Source: a virus
IMG/VR virus record: IMGVR_UViG_3300043399_000633
Location: 32,887 to 96,886 of that record
DNA length: 64,000 bases
Reading direction: 5' to 3' (one strand)
In this document: positions 24,860 through 43,272 of the stretch, in pieces
How the letters are laid out: the number at the start of each line of letters is the position of its first letter
Position numbering within the stretch: position 1 is the stretch's first letter
Program-made: the position numbers and the translations under genes
The notes under the pieces: model-generated
Seen by the model: only the letters and a program-made list of their open reading frames with translations
Database searches by the model: none
Told to the model about the DNA's origin: nothing

Positions 24860-25132
24860 TACAAATTTACAGATTGGTCCAAGCATCTATATCTAACGGA
24901 ACAGCAACGCAAGCAATTGATCGCTGAGAAGTTAGAAAGAGCAAGGATTCAATATCTCGCTACGCAAAGGTCACCTCATAAAGTGGCTCAGTAGCAAAGT
25001 GTGAATGGGAAACGTGGTCCCGAGGCGCACTTAAAACATGTCTCAAACGGGCGGACTGTAGGATGAAGCCTCTTGTGTGAGGTGAAAAATTACAGGCTAG
25101 GGTATAACCCTAGCATAGCGTAGAAATACGCT
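24860..25132 (+). ncRNA. Unidentified structured transcript leader
   Basis: No credible CDS. Hairpins GCTAGGGT/ACCCTAGC (25095-25113) and AGCGTA-GAAA-TACGCT (25117-25132) close it; the second resembles the boxB-like hairpins of the other RNA-operon leaders. The rest contains short complementary stretches but matches no RNA family I know. Confidence 0.4.
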
Positions 25133-25209
25133 ATTCTATAGTGTACTGAACGAACAATGCCCCATGCTTTTGGCGCATGGATCGGCCCTCAGTGTACTAT
25201 AGAATAGTG
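25129..25209 (+). repeat. CATT/AGTG-family long stem, copy 1 (divergent)
   Basis: 21-bp stem (CGCTATTCTATAGTGTACTGA with its partner) around a 39-nt cargo that folds as CCATGC/GCATGG. It lies just before a tRNA-Gln. The lower stem differs in sequence from other copies but stays paired. Confidence 0.6.
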
Positions 25210-25435: not shown

Positions 25436-25510
25436 GCCTGGTTAGCTCAGCGGTAGAGCAGCGTCTTGATAAGGCGTTGGTCGGTGGTTCGACCCCACCA
25501 CTAGGCACCA
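25436..25510 (+). tRNA. tRNA-Ile(GAT)
   Basis: Canonical cloverleaf; anticodon loop TTGATAA, T loop TTCGACC, encoded CCA. Confidence 0.93.
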
Positions 25511-26231: not shown

Positions 26232-26326
26232 GGAAAGTAATGCAGGCATATTGGTGTGCCGACTAGTTTCGAAAGCTAGGTTCCCATGTGACATGGGATG
26301 GGGTTCGATTCCTCTGCTTTCCGCCA
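26232..26326 (+). tRNA. tRNA-Ser(CGA)
   Basis: Type II tRNA with long variable arm (CCCATG/CATGGG). Anticodon loop TTCGAAA; discriminator G; CCA encoded. Confidence 0.92.
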
Positions 26327-26331
26327 GTTTT

Positions 26332-26391
26332 AGGATGCTAACAGCAAATTTTAACATCAAACTGCTAATTTGAAACGTTAAAACGCATCCT
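26332..26391 (+). ncRNA. ACAGCAA element 1 (stand-alone hairpin)
   Basis: AGGATGC pairs with GCATCCT; the 5' internal loop is TAACAGCAAA; then TTTTAAC/GTTAAAA and TCAAA/TTTGA stems. 60 nt. Same architecture as elements 2 and 9. Confidence 0.75.
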
Positions 26392-26404
26392 GTGATATAT
26401 CTGT

Positions 26405-28103: not shown

Positions 28104-28173
28104 AAATTGAGAACTTCAATGAACACGAGGAGTTTAATTCATGAAGCGTCCTTCATGGTCTCATTCAATTTCT
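28104..28173 (+). ncRNA. Structured spacer RNA
   Basis: AAATTGA pairs with TCAATTT at the ends, and CATGAAG-CGTC-CTTCATG is an internal hairpin. Unknown role. Confidence 0.4.
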
Positions 28174-28175
28174 AT

Positions 28176-28254
28176 TCCGCGGAATCCGAGCGTGGTGCAC
28201 GGACTTGACTGTTAATCAATGACTAGCTGGGATCGTCACCCAGACGCGGAGCCA
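28176..28254 (+). tRNA. tRNA-Asn(GTT)
   Basis: Acceptor TCCGCGG/ACGCGGA, anticodon loop CTGTTAA, discriminator G, CCA. T loop ATCGTCA departs from consensus. Confidence 0.82.
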
Positions 28255-28380: not shown

Positions 28381-28439
28381 GGTATTACGTTAAAGAGACA
28401 CTGGGTTTTCACTAGTGTTCGTTGACGTAACGTGATACC
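28381..28439 (+). ncRNA. Short stem RNA in operon B leader
   Basis: GGTATTACGTT pairs with AACGTGATACC (one wobble); inside, ACACT/AGTGT. Overlaps by 2 nt the next stem element. Confidence 0.55.
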
Positions 28440-28534
28440 ATATTTCAACGCATTAGTGGAGGTTTGCTCAGTAATAGCAACCTTTAAATGAGATGGCTCT
28501 GATCTTATCACGCCAATAGTGTGTTGAAATATGG
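28438..28534 (+). repeat. CATT/AGTG-family long stem, copy 3
   Basis: CCATATTTCAACGCATTA pairs with TAGTGTGTTGAAATATGG; cargo about 61 nt with GGTTTGC/GCAACC. Five bases before tRNA-Tyr. Confidence 0.75.
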
Positions 28535-28539
28535 TATCG

Positions 28540-28623: not shown

Positions 28624-28629
28624 ATTATC

Positions 28630-28728
28630 GGGCACGTAAGCATCTAGCGGAAGATGCTACTCGCTGTGTTGCCATGAATACAGCAAATAAGGAGGAGAGT
28701 GCAGGTTCGAGTCCTGTCGTGTCCACCA
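28630..28728 (+). tRNA. Atypical tRNA with enlarged D and anticodon stems
   Basis: Acceptor GGGCACG/CGTGTCC and T arm (TTCGAGT) are normal and CCA is encoded. The D stem is 7 bp (AGCATCT/AGATGCT). The anticodon region forms 8 bp (GCTGTGTT/AATACAGC) with loop GCCATG. Identity (Trp, Gly or Met) cannot be assigned. Confidence 0.65.
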
Positions 28729-29021: not shown

Positions 29022-29105
29022 TCCCACACACATCGAATGGTGCGGTAAGGAATCAAGAGATTCTGTCGTGGGAAGTCTAGCAAAAAGCCGTGACGGCTAG
29101 ACACC
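29022..29105 (+). ncRNA. Two-hairpin RNA ending in ACCA
   Basis: TCCCAC/GTGGGA hairpin, then a 7-bp GTCTAGC/GCTAGAC stem followed by A-CCA. The second unit looks like a tRNA acceptor minihelix. The CCA is also the first base triplet of the next long stem. Confidence 0.5.
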
Positions 29106-29179
29106 ATAGTTCAGCACATTTTGAAGAAACCCGAGGTCTTCTACGACGGGACGGGGCTCTTAGTGTGCTGAACTATGGT
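29103..29179 (+). repeat. CATT/AGTG-family long stem, copy 4
   Basis: ACCATAGTTCAGCACATT pairs with AGTGTGCTGAACTATGGT; cargo about 40 nt with GAAGA/TCTTC. Confidence 0.78.
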
Positions 29180-29222
29180 AAAGGAGTAATTAACCTCAAC
29201 CATACTCGGAAGTCATGACTCC

Positions 29223-30182: not shown

Positions 30183-30192
30183 CAATGGGTTA
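30179..30192 (+). repeat. Direct repeat flanking HNH gene, right copy
   Basis: CCCACAATGGGTTA, identical to 29342-29355. Confidence 0.7.
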
Positions 30193-30194
30193 TT

Positions 30195-30288
30195 ATATTT
30201 CAGCGCATTAGCACTGGCTGCTACCACAGTCAGACGTATTGGTAGATATGCTGGGCAACAACGCCGCCCGGGTAGTGTGCTGAAATAT
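30195..30288 (+). repeat. CATT/AGTG-family long stem, copy 5
   Basis: ATATTTCAGCGCATTA with TAGTGTGCTGAAATAT; cargo about 60 nt with CTACC/GGTAG. Confidence 0.75.
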
Positions 30289-30292
30289 GGTA

Positions 30293-30395
30293 AGCCTTAA
30301 TCCAACTGAGGAACAAAAGATCGTCAGAGTCGCGTCTGGTAAAGATCAAGTAGTTCCAATTAGGTGACTCAAGGCTGGTTCCCGGCGGGGAGCCA
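30293..30395 (+). ncRNA. Structured RNA between long stems
   Basis: AGCCTT/AAGGCT encloses nested GGAAC/GTTCC, GATC/GATC and CAGA/TCTG. A GGTTCCC/GGGAGCC hairpin and CCA follow. No CDS. Confidence 0.45.
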
Positions 30396-30527
30396 TATTG
30401 AAGCACATTTCTTGGCTAGTAGCGGAAAGAATACTTAATCGGGTCAACGAGCCTTTACTCCTCCCGAAGAACGGTATCGTAAAGATATAAGGACCGTCTA
30501 TGTATTGTGAAGTGTGTTTCAATATGG
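30393..30527 (+). repeat. CATT/AGTG-family long stem, copy 6
   Basis: CCATATTGAAGCACATTT with AAGTGTGTTTCAATATGG; cargo about 99 nt containing ACGGT/ACCGT. Confidence 0.76.
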
Positions 30528-30632
30528 TATGAGAGCCTCTTCAACGACCAGAGTGTCTATTATTGTTGTGGAGATAAAATAGTAGACCGATCTAGATTGG
30601 GCAGTGTCCACTACTCATAATTTGCTCATACC
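30526..30632 (+). ncRNA. Structured RNA between long stems
   Basis: GGTATGAG/CTCATACC terminal stem; inside, a 9-bp GTCTATTAT/ATAGTAGAC stem. Starts on the last bases of the preceding long stem. Confidence 0.5.
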
Positions 30633-30724: not shown

Positions 30725-30816
30725 TCTTACTCAAGGATCGCGGTGTTGGGAAGAACGGGAATACATAACCGTCTGTAAGCAATCCTGCACATTGAGAGGG
30801 GGTGGAATTCCCCCAC
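30725..30816 (+). ncRNA. tRNA-like or structured RNA ending in ACCA
   Basis: TTAC/GTAA and GGGGG/CCCCC pairings, ending CCCCC-ACCA at the start of the next stem. Not a recognisable cloverleaf. Confidence 0.3.
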
Positions 30817-30970
30817 CATATTAAAACACATTAGCCTACCCAAGGGCTTGTAGACAGTGGTTGGAAGGATCTACACAAGTGCTATCGCAAGAGGCAGGAA
30901 CCATCCAGGTGGTGCTGGACCCTGCGGGGGCTTCGAAATCCTCAGATAAGCCGTAGTGTGTTTTAATATG
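30817..30970 (+). repeat. CATT/AGTG-family long stem, copy 8, with tRNA-like cargo
   Basis: CATATTAAAACACATTA pairs perfectly with TAGTGTGTTTTAATATG. The cargo has a 7-bp acceptor-like stem GGCTTGT/ATAAGCC, a T-like arm with TTCGAAA, and a GCAGG/CCTGC arm, so it may be a caged tRNA-like molecule. Confidence 0.7.
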
Positions 30971-31078
30971 ATAAGGATACATATGTTGTATGATATTTGA
31001 TGGAACACCATGCTTTCTCATGTCATATAGCAAAAGTGGCAGGTTTGTAGCGTACCTGTTGTATAAAAACGCTATGAT
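30971..31078 (+). other. Spacer with small hairpins
   Basis: CAGGT/ACCTG and AGCGT/ACGCT hairpins; no CDS or tRNA that I can support. Confidence 0.35.
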
Positions 31079-31150
31079 CATATTGAAACACATTGATCCT
31101 AACGATTGTTTAGGAAGACTGGCGATTGTTCAGCAGTGTGTTTCAATATG
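31079..31150 (+). repeat. CATT/AGTG-family long stem, copy 9
   Basis: CATATTGAAACACATTG with CAGTGTGTTTCAATATG; cargo is a TCCTAA/TTAGGA hairpin plus tail. Confidence 0.78.
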
Positions 31151-31151
31151 G

Positions 31152-31264
31152 TAAATGCGTAGGCTGATACGCAACTTTGAGTTCGGTGCGGCAAGCCACA
31201 CAGGTAAAGCTGGTGGCATGGCTCTTCAAAAATCCAGCATGCGGGAGATCAGCACCCGCTACCA
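31152..31264 (+). ncRNA. tRNA-like structured RNA ending in ACCA
   Basis: Hairpins TGCGT/ACGCA, CCAC/GTGG, GCATG/CATGC (loop CTCTTCAAAAAT region) and GCGGG/CCCGC, then TACCA. Arms resemble a tRNA but in no standard order. Confidence 0.4.
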
Positions 31265-31332
31265 TAGTTCAACACATTTCTAATGTACAAACAACTACCC
31301 GGGTTAAGTTGGGAAGTGTGTTGAACTATGGT
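31261..31332 (+). repeat. CATT/AGTG-family long stem, copy 10
   Basis: ACCATAGTTCAACACATTT with AAGTGTGTTGAACTATGGT; its first four bases are the ACCA end of the preceding RNA. Cargo about 34 nt. Confidence 0.78.
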
Positions 31333-31422
31333 GAATAGGGCCTCGCTCACTAAGGTCCGTTAAGAGCGAGCAATGCCAGCAGGACGGATCTGAGATAGCG
31401 AAGGAAAGTGGGCAGAGGCTGG
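31333..31422 (+). other. Structured spacer
   Basis: GCTCGC pairing with GCGAGC (CTCGCTC/GAGCGAG) forms a hairpin near the start; nothing else recognised. Confidence 0.35.
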
Positions 31423-31515
31423 CTTCCATAGTTCAACACATTCTACCCTACCTCGGCTGGAACGGCTGTGCGAGGATAGGCGAACAGACCCGTTTGAGTG
31501 TGTTGAACTATGGAA
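31423..31515 (+). repeat. CATT/AGTG-family long stem, copy 11
   Basis: TTCCATAGTTCAACACATTC with GAGTGTGTTGAACTATGGAA (20 bp); cargo has CCTCG/CGAGG. Ends 1 bp before the next promoter. Confidence 0.8.
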
Positions 31516-31516
31516 C

Positions 31517-31545
31517 TTGACACAAATTAGTAAGAGTGCTATACT
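31517..31545 (+). promoter_or_regulatory. Sigma70 promoter of RNA operon C
   Basis: TTGACA, 17 bp, TATACT. Confidence 0.85.
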
Positions 31546-31714: not shown

Positions 31715-31720
31715 ATTTTT

Positions 31721-31809
31721 GGGTGTTGCTCCCTGTTGCCGGCTGTAACCCGGTAGGCGTTGTTAAGCAGGGCGGTTGCCAAATGGTTCGACTCCTTCAA
31801 CACCCACCA
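31721..31809 (+). tRNA. Rearranged tRNA-Tyr(GTA), copy 1
   Basis: Acceptor GGGTGTT/AACACCC and CCA are perfect; the anticodon arm is GCCGG-CTGTAAC-CCGGT. A CCCTG/CAGGG pair encloses the anticodon arm instead of preceding it, and GGTTG lies after it, so D-arm parts are split around the anticodon arm. T arm weak. Same layout at 37535. Confidence 0.65.
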
Positions 31810-31819
31810 AAAATTTAAT

Positions 31820-31939
31820 GGGGCCTTAGTGTAATGGTAGCATGTTTAAAGACGGTTATCCTGATAGGATACGGACAGCAAACTTTCTCAATTCCACGAT
31901 AAGGAAAAGGTCCAGGTTCGAATCCTGGGGGCTCCACCA
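31820..31939 (+). tRNA. tRNA with about 44-nt insertion carrying ACAGCAA element 5
   Basis: 120 nt. Acceptor GGGGCCT/GGGCTCC, D arm TGTAATGGTAGCAT, T arm CCAGG/CCTGG and CCA are normal. Between D and T arms lie TATCCT-GAT-AGGATA, then CGGACAGCAAAC, then a TTCC-ACGATAA-GGAA hairpin. If the last is the anticodon arm it reads GAT with C33; the first hairpin also shows CTGATAG. Likely Ile, uncertain. Confidence 0.65.
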
Positions 31940-32028: not shown

Positions 32029-32083
32029 AGGATGCTAACAGCAAATTTTACTCAACTTTCAATTGGTGAAAAAAATGCATCCT
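32029..32083 (+). ncRNA. ACAGCAA element 2 (stand-alone hairpin)
   Basis: AGGATGC/GCATCCT with 5' loop TAACAGCAA and a short AT-rich inner stem. The first 23 nt equal element 1. Confidence 0.75.
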
Positions 32084-32095
32084 GTCATTTTTAAT

Positions 32096-32177: not shown

Positions 32178-32217
32178 GCCCCAGTAACTCAGTGGACTAG
32201 AGTACTGTGCTACGAAC
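32178..32217 (+). tRNA. 5' half of a tRNA-Arg(ACG), interrupted
   Basis: GCCCCAG, D arm (ACTCAGTGGACTAGAGT) and the start of an anticodon arm with CTACGAA. It then breaks into the HNH leader; no matching 3' acceptor is present nearby. Confidence 0.6.
32209..32217 (+). repeat. Direct repeat GCTACGAAC, left copy
   Basis: The Arg(ACG) anticodon-loop sequence, repeated at 32943-32951, with the HNH gene between the copies. Confidence 0.6.
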
Positions 32218-40222: not shown

Positions 40223-40308
40223 TTCTTAACATTGTTGAATACATTGCTCACGGTGCGTACAACGGGCTACGGGTGAGGTAACAACAGTGTGTTCAACAAT
40301 GTTAAGAA
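40223..40308 (+). repeat. CATT/AGTG-family long stem, copy 16
   Basis: TTCTTAACATTGTTGAATACATTG with a full-length partner (24 positions), starting right after boxA. Cargo has CTCAC/GTGAG. Confidence 0.75.
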
Positions 40309-41200
40309 TTCAAGGGCAGCTTAATGTCCTACACGGTATGGTTCGCCCAGCTGTGTGAAGAATAAGTCAGGTGACTGACCCAAAGGAGGTAAGCCTACAT
40401 AACTCCGCTAGTAATAGTTCATTTAAGCAAGCCTGCTCACACCCGCGAGGGTGCGTTCACTGAGAAGACCGGTGGATGTAACAATGAAGCAAGTGTGTTG
40501 GAAAGAATGTCTGTTTAAGTCCCCGCAAGGGTAAGACAGGCAGACAGAGAGTAACAGGTGGTGCTGACCTCAACACAAAACCAACTTGCGAATTGGTATG
40601 AGAAAGGGTAGTATTATGATCCGAAGGGTCGCACCTAAGGGTTGTAGTGCAGTATGAGTGGTTAGTGGGCATGTAGTAATACATGTACACCGATCGCAAA
40701 ATACGACTGAGTAGTCCGCGAGACAAAAGGTACGTGGTGTGTTGTATTGAGTAGAGCAAAACTTTATTCAGCAACTGAGGCAGCACATCATAGTAGGTCA
40801 AATGTAGATCAATGGTAGATCGTCTGTATGATGAACAGAATGCTGTCGGTTCAAGTCCGATCATTTTAACAAAAACGCAAAGACTGCCTCGGTTGTATGT
40901 GAAAAACATCTAATACTTGACTCTTCGGAGAATCAAGTCTGACGTAACTCGCAAGGTGAAATCAGTTTATGCAGGATATTTCGTAGCCCGCAAGGCTTAA
41001 TGGACCGCAAGTTCAACGGAATGGAAAGCGTAGAATAGCATACAATGTCAAGTCTACTGCCTGACTCTAAACGGCGATGTTGGTAACAGACTAGGTTACT
41101 GTGTAATAACAGGGCTTAGTGGATATCTAGAGAAGGTTGGCTCGCAAGGCTAACTATAATGCTAGAGGTGTTACTCGGTAAGGATGTAATCTCAGTCCTC
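40309..41200 (+). ncRNA. GOLLD-like giant ornate RNA
   Basis: About 890 nt without a supportable CDS, transcribed from the operon E leader. It contains many hairpins with GNRA or UUCG loops (ACCC-GCGA-GGGT, CCC-CGCAAG-GG, several CGCAAG loops, CTC-TTCG-GAG). A complete tRNA-like body is embedded at 40798. Size, phage setting, tRNA neighbourhood and embedded tRNA fit GOLLD RNAs; ROOL is shorter and less likely. A covariance-model search would decide. Confidence 0.6.
40798..40869 (+). tRNA. tRNA-Ile-like (GAT) embedded in the giant RNA
   Basis: D arm GATC/GATC, anticodon stem TCTGT/ACAGA with loop ATGATGA, T arm GTCGG-TTCAAGT-CCGAT, acceptor TCAAATG/CATTTTA. No CCA. Flanked by GAGGCAG/CTGCCTC, a stem of the host RNA. 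Confidence 0.65.
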
Positions 41201-42784: not shown

Positions 42785-42941
42785 AGGATCGGTACAGCAA
42801 CATTCTGCTATTATAGTGAATGGTCTGGATACGGTATGGTGTTAGCTGGAGGGGTCACCCTGTGAAGGCTAACATTGAAATACTACCGGACGAACTCAGA
42901 GTGATGGCCTGAGTATAATAAAAGCAGTCGAAAACGATCCT
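42785..42941 (+). ncRNA. ACAGCAA element 7, about 157-nt structured RNA
   Basis: AGGATCG/CGATCCT closes it; GTACAGCAACATT follows the 5' strand. Next is a long CTGCTATTATA stem with TATAATA...GCAG, then CGGTAT/ATAC-ACCG, GTTAGC/GCTAAC and CTCAG/CTGAG arms. First RNA after the promoter. Confidence 0.7.
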
Positions 42942-42955
42942 GTTGTTTTTGTTTT

Positions 42956-43187
42956 AGGATGATTACAGCAAACTAAAAAAAATATCTACTCCAGTTAATG
43001 CAGTAGAAGATGGCCCGGAAGGCAAGTGGAAACACTTCTAGTAGAAATACTAGCGTTAAAGGAACTGATGACCTTGGAAAGACAAGTATGCGCCATCGCA
43101 GACGCAAGGATGGATAGGCTTGAGGAACTGAACCGATGTACTGGGGATGAGGTCAAGCAGAAAATAAAAACCAGTTCCGTTCATCCT
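42956..43187 (+). ncRNA. ACAGCAA element 8, about 232-nt structured RNA
   Basis: AGGATGA/TCATCCT terminal stem; ATTACAGCAAAC after the 5' strand. Inner helices: GGAACTG/CAGTTCC, CTACT/AGTAG, AAGTG-GAAA-CACTT, CTAGTA-GAAA-TACTAG. A short frame across it has no ribosome site and is rejected. Confidence 0.7.
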
Positions 43188-43198
43188 GTTAGATTAAT

Positions 43199-43258
43199 TG
43201 AATGCTAACAGCAATTTTTAAAAACTCAAATCGCAACTTTGATCTAAAAACGCATTCA
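43199..43258 (+). ncRNA. ACAGCAA element 9, 5'-leader hairpin
   Basis: TGAATGC/GCATTCA with TAACAGCAA on the 5' side and an inner TTTTTA/TAAAAA plus TCAAA/TTTGA stem, as in elements 1 and 2. It ends 2 nt before the AAAGGA ribosome site of the DUF2828 gene. Confidence 0.78.
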
Positions 43259-43272
43259 GAAAGGAAAATAAA

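Follow-up and report, generated by a model that had tools for sequence, protein, structure and literature searches.

A tRNA-like gene with an internal hairpin

The window considered here, a stretch of 64,000 nucleotides (nt) of viral DNA (IMG/VR record IMGVR_UViG_3300043399_000633, positions 32,887 to 96,886), contains at 31820-31939 a gene resembling an isoleucine transfer RNA (tRNA), in which an insert fills the space between the end of the D arm and the anticodon arm, where an ordinary tRNA has about one base. Read directly from the sequence, the acceptor strands GGGGCCT (31820-31826) and GGGCTCC (31929-31935) pair with each other, the D arm occupies 31829-31843, the T arm 31912-31928, and a terminal CCA is encoded at the 3' end (31939). 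An earlier note on this DNA had described a tRNA that is interrupted between the D and anticodon arms and otherwise retains its acceptor, D arm and T arm, and both the arms and the location of the insert are borne out. The hairpin and the ACAGCAA motif that it had reported are likewise present within the insert, the hairpin at 31857-31871 with the strands TATCCT (31857-31862) and AGGATA (31866-31871) around a GAT loop, followed by CGG and then by ACAGCAA at 31875-31881. The anticodon arm, which the note had left unnamed, has a core of 4 base pairs (bp), TTCC-ACGATAA-GGAA at 31892-31906, with the anticodon GAT, and lies directly 5' of the variable loop. We refer to the hairpin with its motif as the handle; in the elements described below it consists of a 6-8 bp stem followed after 1-4 bases by CAGCAA, and the opposite strand is nearly always followed by a G.

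The paired acceptor, D and T arms and the encoded CCA are those of a tRNA gene; the U33 expected of such a gene is absent, position 33 being C here and T in all 41 of the 41 ordinary tRNAs of the window, among them an ordinary tRNA-Ile(GAT) at 25436. ARAGORN calls no tRNA on the uncut sequence, and no Rfam tRNA match is listed for it at E values up to 10. When the D arm is joined to the anticodon arm in silico, ARAGORN calls tRNA-Ile(gat), in line with the tRNA-Ile named in the earlier note. The joined tRNA still carries C33, however, and of 1488 deletions scanned blindly 503 yielded some tRNA, many of them called tRNA-Trp, so that the appearance of a tRNA after deletion is by itself weak evidence and the scan cannot place the insert. 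The remark that the insert lies outside the anticodon loop and shows no group I core stands, and a group I intron in this gene was rejected because the insert is 5' of the anticodon arm and has no group I match in Rfam. Chance is argued against by a relative (L018) in which this element recurs with another anticodon and by the strong covariation among 23 relatives described below.

Further handle-bearing elements of the window are collected in Table 1. The second tRNA with an insert has its GTG arm at 33539-33553, an imperfect handle stem (33498-33505 with 33511-33518) and GCAGCAA at 33520-33526. The two long elements at 42785-43188 (about 160 and 230 nt) stand in tandem 5' of the leader of a Ro-like gene, with a payload that is not tRNA-like, and tandems resembling them also occur in the records L044 and L125. 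ACAGCAA at 28680 and other copies in coding sequence were left out as apparent chance, and four copies elsewhere in the record, outside the window, were taken for chance after a cursory look.

Table 1. Features of the window, with coordinates counted from its first base
Feature	Coordinates	Strand	Description
tRNA-Ile(GAT)-like gene with internal handle	31820..31939	+	Direct sequence reading; covariation of acceptor, D and T stems across 23 relatives
Insert, 47 nt	31844..31890	+	A-rich linker, hairpin, CGG, ACAGCAA, linker
Anticodon arm	31891..31907	+	ATTCC-ACGATAA-GGAAA; four standard pairs, outer A-A nonstandard
Second tRNA with handle between D and anticodon arms, His GTG	33460..33587	+	Rfam tRNA 30.8 bits; relatives exist
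Free anticodon hairpin, handle-closed	26332..26392	+	AGGATGC-TA-ACAGCAA / GCATCCT-G, loop CTGCTAA
Free handle-closed hairpin	32029..32084	+	Anticodon-like loop AATTGGT
Permuted tRNA: T arm, acceptor with 4-nt closing loop, D arm	33236..33346	+	Handle GGGATAC-TT-ACAGCAA / GTATCCC-G; YrlA module 29.9 bits
Longer handle-closed element with T-arm-like part	34589..34688	+	No G after 3' strand
Long handle-closed element	42785..42942	+	AGGATCG...CGATCCT-G
Long handle-closed element	42956..43188	+	AGGATGA...TCATCCT-G
Handle hairpin in Ro-like gene leader	43200..43259	+	AAAGG and ATG immediately after
Ro60-like protein, 471 amino acids	43273..44688	+	DUF2828 and DUF7788 (vWA-type, DVSGSM); Pfam, PHROG, predicted fold
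Second hairpin family, copies 1-6	25129-25209, 28434-28538, 29100-29182, 30189-30294, 30389-30531, 30812-30975
Second hairpin family, copies 7-11	31074-31155, 31258-31335, 31422-31517, 34046-34157, 40225-40306

Relatives of the handle and the neighbouring Ro-like gene

A scan of viral contigs with the hairpin pattern returned at least 120 stretches, together with 16 for the pattern of a hairpin within a tRNA and 15 for the D-arm pattern, 3 of the latter apparently coding. In genome_contigs this hairpin pattern matched 9 stretches, all of them metagenome-assembled and about as many as chance would provide by a rough, uncomputed estimate. The 453 non-redundant raw elements, gathered under loose rules that admit many chance matches in coding sequence, served for examples only. 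Many hairpins enclose plain anticodon arms, such as TTTGA-CTTTTAA-TCAAA. The insert-bearing tRNAs run from D arm through stem strand, G-loop, stem strand and CAGCAA to the anticodon arm, and the permuted forms from stem through CAGCAA, anticodon arm or small hairpin, T arm, acceptor and D arm to stem and G, so that each is a circular permutation of the other about one common handle. Most permuted forms lack CCA, and their acceptor end mostly has a loop of only 4-5 nt.

Covariation was assessed in 23 sequences hand-picked from 44 raw matches, the gene at 31820-31939 included. The 21 left out were near-duplicates (L070, L218, L220 and L144), elements of other geometry (the first of L031, the first of L085, L200, L221, L246, L247 and two from L255) and ill-fitting ones (L043, the second of L051, the second of L085, L116, L134, L175, L182, L196 and L204). 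In the alignment 16 of the 22 counted pairs have changed on both sides, 99.6% of cells are paired, and none of 500 shuffles reached the observed covariation score. The handle stem contributes four such changed pairs out of six; since the searches selected for it, the acceptor and the T stem, pairing in these three is in part built in. No search selected for the D stem, which is 100% paired. Closely similar bodies carry the anticodons GAT (31820-31939), GTT (L018), TGT (L103) and TGA (L188), which argues against a decoding role.

Relatives also occur in named phages, where they score 40.9-56.9 bits as tRNA; long genes of Cronobacter phage S13 and Citrobacter phage Ci1 that are annotated as tRNA-Ser, tRNA-OTHER and tRNA-Pseudo are tRNAs with this insert. 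To judge from their sequences, the handle seems to lie inside the anticodon loop, or to replace it, in the first gene of S13, the first gene of Ci1 and LAh_9. In the tRNA of Aeromonas phage LAh_9 (L247:3364-3480) the loop seems to have given way to the handle together with a small hairpin, and several further handle elements with differing stems lie nearby.

The handle elements of the window lie upstream of the Ro-like gene, and the array ends just 5' of it. Its protein is annotated in PHROG as 'RNA-binding protein', and its predicted structure (mean predicted local distance difference test score, pLDDT, 79.3) has Ro60/TROVE chains as all nine of its best Foldseek matches (E 3.9e-10 to 9.4e-6). 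A second look placed 9kop first (Z 18.1, root-mean-square deviation (rmsd) 4.7, 399 aligned residues); the Ro60 of Thermus phage phiLo (9l5y) gave Z 16.9 and rmsd 4.8 over 395 residues, and the first unrelated structure Z 11.2 and rmsd 3.7 over 164. The model thus predicts a Ro60 ring fold with a vWA domain. Pfam TROVE (PF05731) has no match in the record, this protein included, an absence that had first pointed away from Ro, and a relative (L231) alone touched vWA_Ro60, at an E value of 0.0039 that falls under the cut-off. The link to DUF2828 was reached through Pseudomonas phage Milchi. A search of PDB sequences with the single protein found nothing, and a profile search gave weak TROVE matches only (E 0.0084). 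Relatives of the protein occur in 682 of 50,697 phage records, some of them annotated as Ro-like.

The association between handle and gene extends to other phages. DUF2828 (PF11443) is present in 34 of 50 handle-bearing records, which are a subset, mostly fragments, of the 66 first named, and in 15 of the 16 that exceed 100 kilobases. Among 32 control records, which matched either an unrelated 16-mer or the same letters within apparent coding sequence, a single one (L077/L187) has PF11443, and it too contains a handle. Leaders of non-redundant Ro-like genes contain CAGCA in 43 of 56 cases, and strong pairing is found in 37 of these 43, as against 18% in a null of leaders with swapped halves. 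Thirteen named phages were also read by eye under permissive rules, 12 of them chosen by the protein (including LAh_9, which had also surfaced in the hairpin search) and Milchi through an anticodon hairpin. In KVP40, LAh_9, BUCT-ZZ01, A511, phiM12 and DLP_6 the gene leader contains the handle, its 3' strand overlying the start codon in KVP40, and in Alf5, LeBron, S-CoN_Ph7, S13 and Ci1 it is elsewhere near the gene, Alf5 having several such elements there. Milchi has it farther away, within the array, and in Serratia BF no handle was seen in the stretch fetched. In Listeria phage CKA15 a Ro/Rsr-like protein is reported to be present in virions, and very abundant RNAs, suspected of being Y RNAs, to arise at most 2 kilobases from its gene (PMC12282133). 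Listeria phage A511 has three handle elements just upstream of the same Ro-like gene, matching the place of the CKA15 RNAs. A TROVE protein is also noted in some jumbo phages in a further article (PMC7824862).

The window has other features. A second hairpin family, in many copies within the tRNA array, has long, near-perfect stems with differing arms (for example CCATAGTTCAACAC / GTGTTGAACTATGG) that close about 80-165 nt. A GOLLD RNA encloses a tRNA-Ile at 40734-41198. At 32182-33003 the 5' half of a tRNA-Arg (loop CTACGAA) is followed by an HNH open reading frame and then by a tRNA-like stretch that repeats this loop and lacks a D arm, an arrangement that resembles a homing endonuclease insertion alongside another copy of its target. 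Odd stretches resembling tRNA, ending in CC or CCA and uncalled by ARAGORN, lie at 26232-26322, 28160-28254, 28626-28722 and 31720-31806.

Readings of the insert

From the sequence of the element, its covariation, its link to the gene and the predicted Ro60 fold, which the analysis shows, we infer that the insert is probably a handle for the Ro-like protein that is kept in the mature RNA, making the product of 31820-31939 a hybrid of tRNA and Y RNA bound by that protein. The phage would then make a ring protein of the Ro60 type along with several RNAs that share one handle, the payloads being whole tRNAs (with the handle between the D arm and the anticodon arm), loose anticodon arms and tRNAs in circularly permuted order. 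With the protein gripping the handle, each RNA would display its tRNA or tRNA part on the Ro particle, in the manner of bacterial Y RNAs. The particle would probably act as a bait or tether for an enzyme that acts on tRNA, be it an anticodon nuclease, an exoribonuclease or a modification enzyme, and the handle in the leader would probably let the protein shut down its own translation. That protein and RNAs, the single anticodon arms among them bearing many anticodons, together amount to a modular bait kit, occupying the tRNA-cutting or tRNA-modifying enzymes of the host during infection while the protein tunes itself through the handle, is a tentative proposal that we regard as possible though somewhat doubtful.

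Several observations weigh against a retained handle for the Ro-like protein. DUF2828 is missing from 16 of the 50 handle-bearing records, and although these are mostly fragments, one has 249,606 bases. In most elements the stems had also served to find them, and handle patterns were what selected most of the handle-bearing records and leaders, so that the support is partly selected both for the pairing and for the association counts. YrlA, the Rfam family of bacterial Y RNAs, has no match at 31820-31939 and a partial one at 33268-33324 (29.9 bits in cmscan); the elements fall short of its gathering score of 69, and its Rfam consensus lacks CAGCAA. With CCA and a four-pair anticodon stem kept, charging of the tRNA is also possible.

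The main rival is the one implied by the earlier note, a new type of tRNA intron in which the insert is excised and the halves ending in the D arm and beginning with the anticodon arm are joined, the permuted genes being joined likewise and their acceptor loop opened. It would explain why in silico joining gives a cloverleaf and why insert-bearing and permuted tRNAs have one junction in common, as a common splice site would require, and an RNA ligase gene is annotated nearby in two named phages, LAh_9 and BF. It would not account for the free anticodon hairpins, which offer no exons, for copies in the leader of the Ro-like gene, or for permuted forms that mostly lack CCA and have a closed acceptor end; C33 and the varied anticodons on closely similar bodies also speak against it. 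Excision finds little support here and is in our judgement unlikely, and the presence of the handle without tRNA halves, in permuted tRNAs, inside or in place of anticodon loops and in the leader is more in keeping with a retained protein-binding module than with an intron. A tRNA that retains the insert as a tolerated extra arm, is charged and decodes would explain the intact, covarying acceptor, D and T arms, the recognisable anticodon arm, the encoded CCA and the tRNA scores of the named-phage relatives. That reading is nonetheless quite improbable given C33 in place of the T33 found in all ordinary tRNAs of the window, the presence of an ordinary tRNA-Ile(GAT), the changing anticodons on one body and the handle that seems to invade or replace the anticodon loop in S13, Ci1 and LAh_9.

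The window does hold several damaged or odd tRNA-like stretches, as would suit a decayed tRNA gene with a random insertion, but many unlike phages have this insert in the same position and the covariation contradicts decay, which we hold to be very improbable. A remaining alternative is that the partner of the handle is a different protein of the phage or the host, such as a processing nuclease, and that the link to Ro is an indirect one through common tRNA regions. Handles and Ro genes do both lie near tRNA arrays; most non-redundant Ro genes nevertheless have the handle in their own leader, and it adjoins the gene in phages of unrelated hosts and covers the start codon with its 3' strand in KVP40, and we consider another binder unlikely. 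If the handle is indeed held by the Ro-like protein, it offers a means of listing the RNA partners of phage Ro proteins by sequence, including the odd and pseudo tRNAs annotated in named phages. Phage Ro60 proteins are common, and a settled job for them is not evident in the literature covered; the handle RNAs tie them to the question of phage defence against host enzymes that cut tRNA.

Comparison with known systems

Like the group I tRNA introns of bacteria, the phage insert lies within a tRNA gene, but it differs from them in its position in the tRNA, its length of 47 nt and the lack of an Rfam match. Permuted tRNA genes with a common splice site are known from algae and archaea, and the phage elements resemble permuted and intron-bearing tRNA genes in having reversed tRNA halves or an insert between arms. 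They differ in that the acceptor end is closed by a short loop and that the handle is common to RNAs without tRNA halves.

Bacterial Y RNAs present a tRNA-like domain on the Ro particle. The phage elements share with YrlA (RF02553), the partner of Ro60/Rsr, a tRNA-mimicking module of T arm, acceptor and D arm in permuted order that is closed by a stem, and their gene neighbourhood likewise includes a protein with a predicted Ro fold. Paired RNA ends, which form the Ro-binding stem in YrlA, are found in the permuted and hairpin elements; in the gene at 31820-31939 the ends form the acceptor and the handle is internal, and membership of YrlA is excluded for it by both score and topology. In contrast to YrlA, the phages also carry whole tRNAs whose parts stand in normal order, as well as loose anticodon arms, in many copies per phage. 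The window protein resembles the phage Ro60 proteins, such as that of phiLo (9l5y), the mycobacteriophage 'Ro-like RNA binding protein' and CKA15_055, in its predicted fold, and differs from them in matching DUF2828 and DUF7788 and not PF05731. A literature search that covered titles, the openings of abstracts and text passages found no description of a Ro handle on tRNAs or on loose anticodon arms. Both phage Ro proteins and Y RNAs are already known; whole tRNAs and loose anticodon arms that bear the handle appear to be new.
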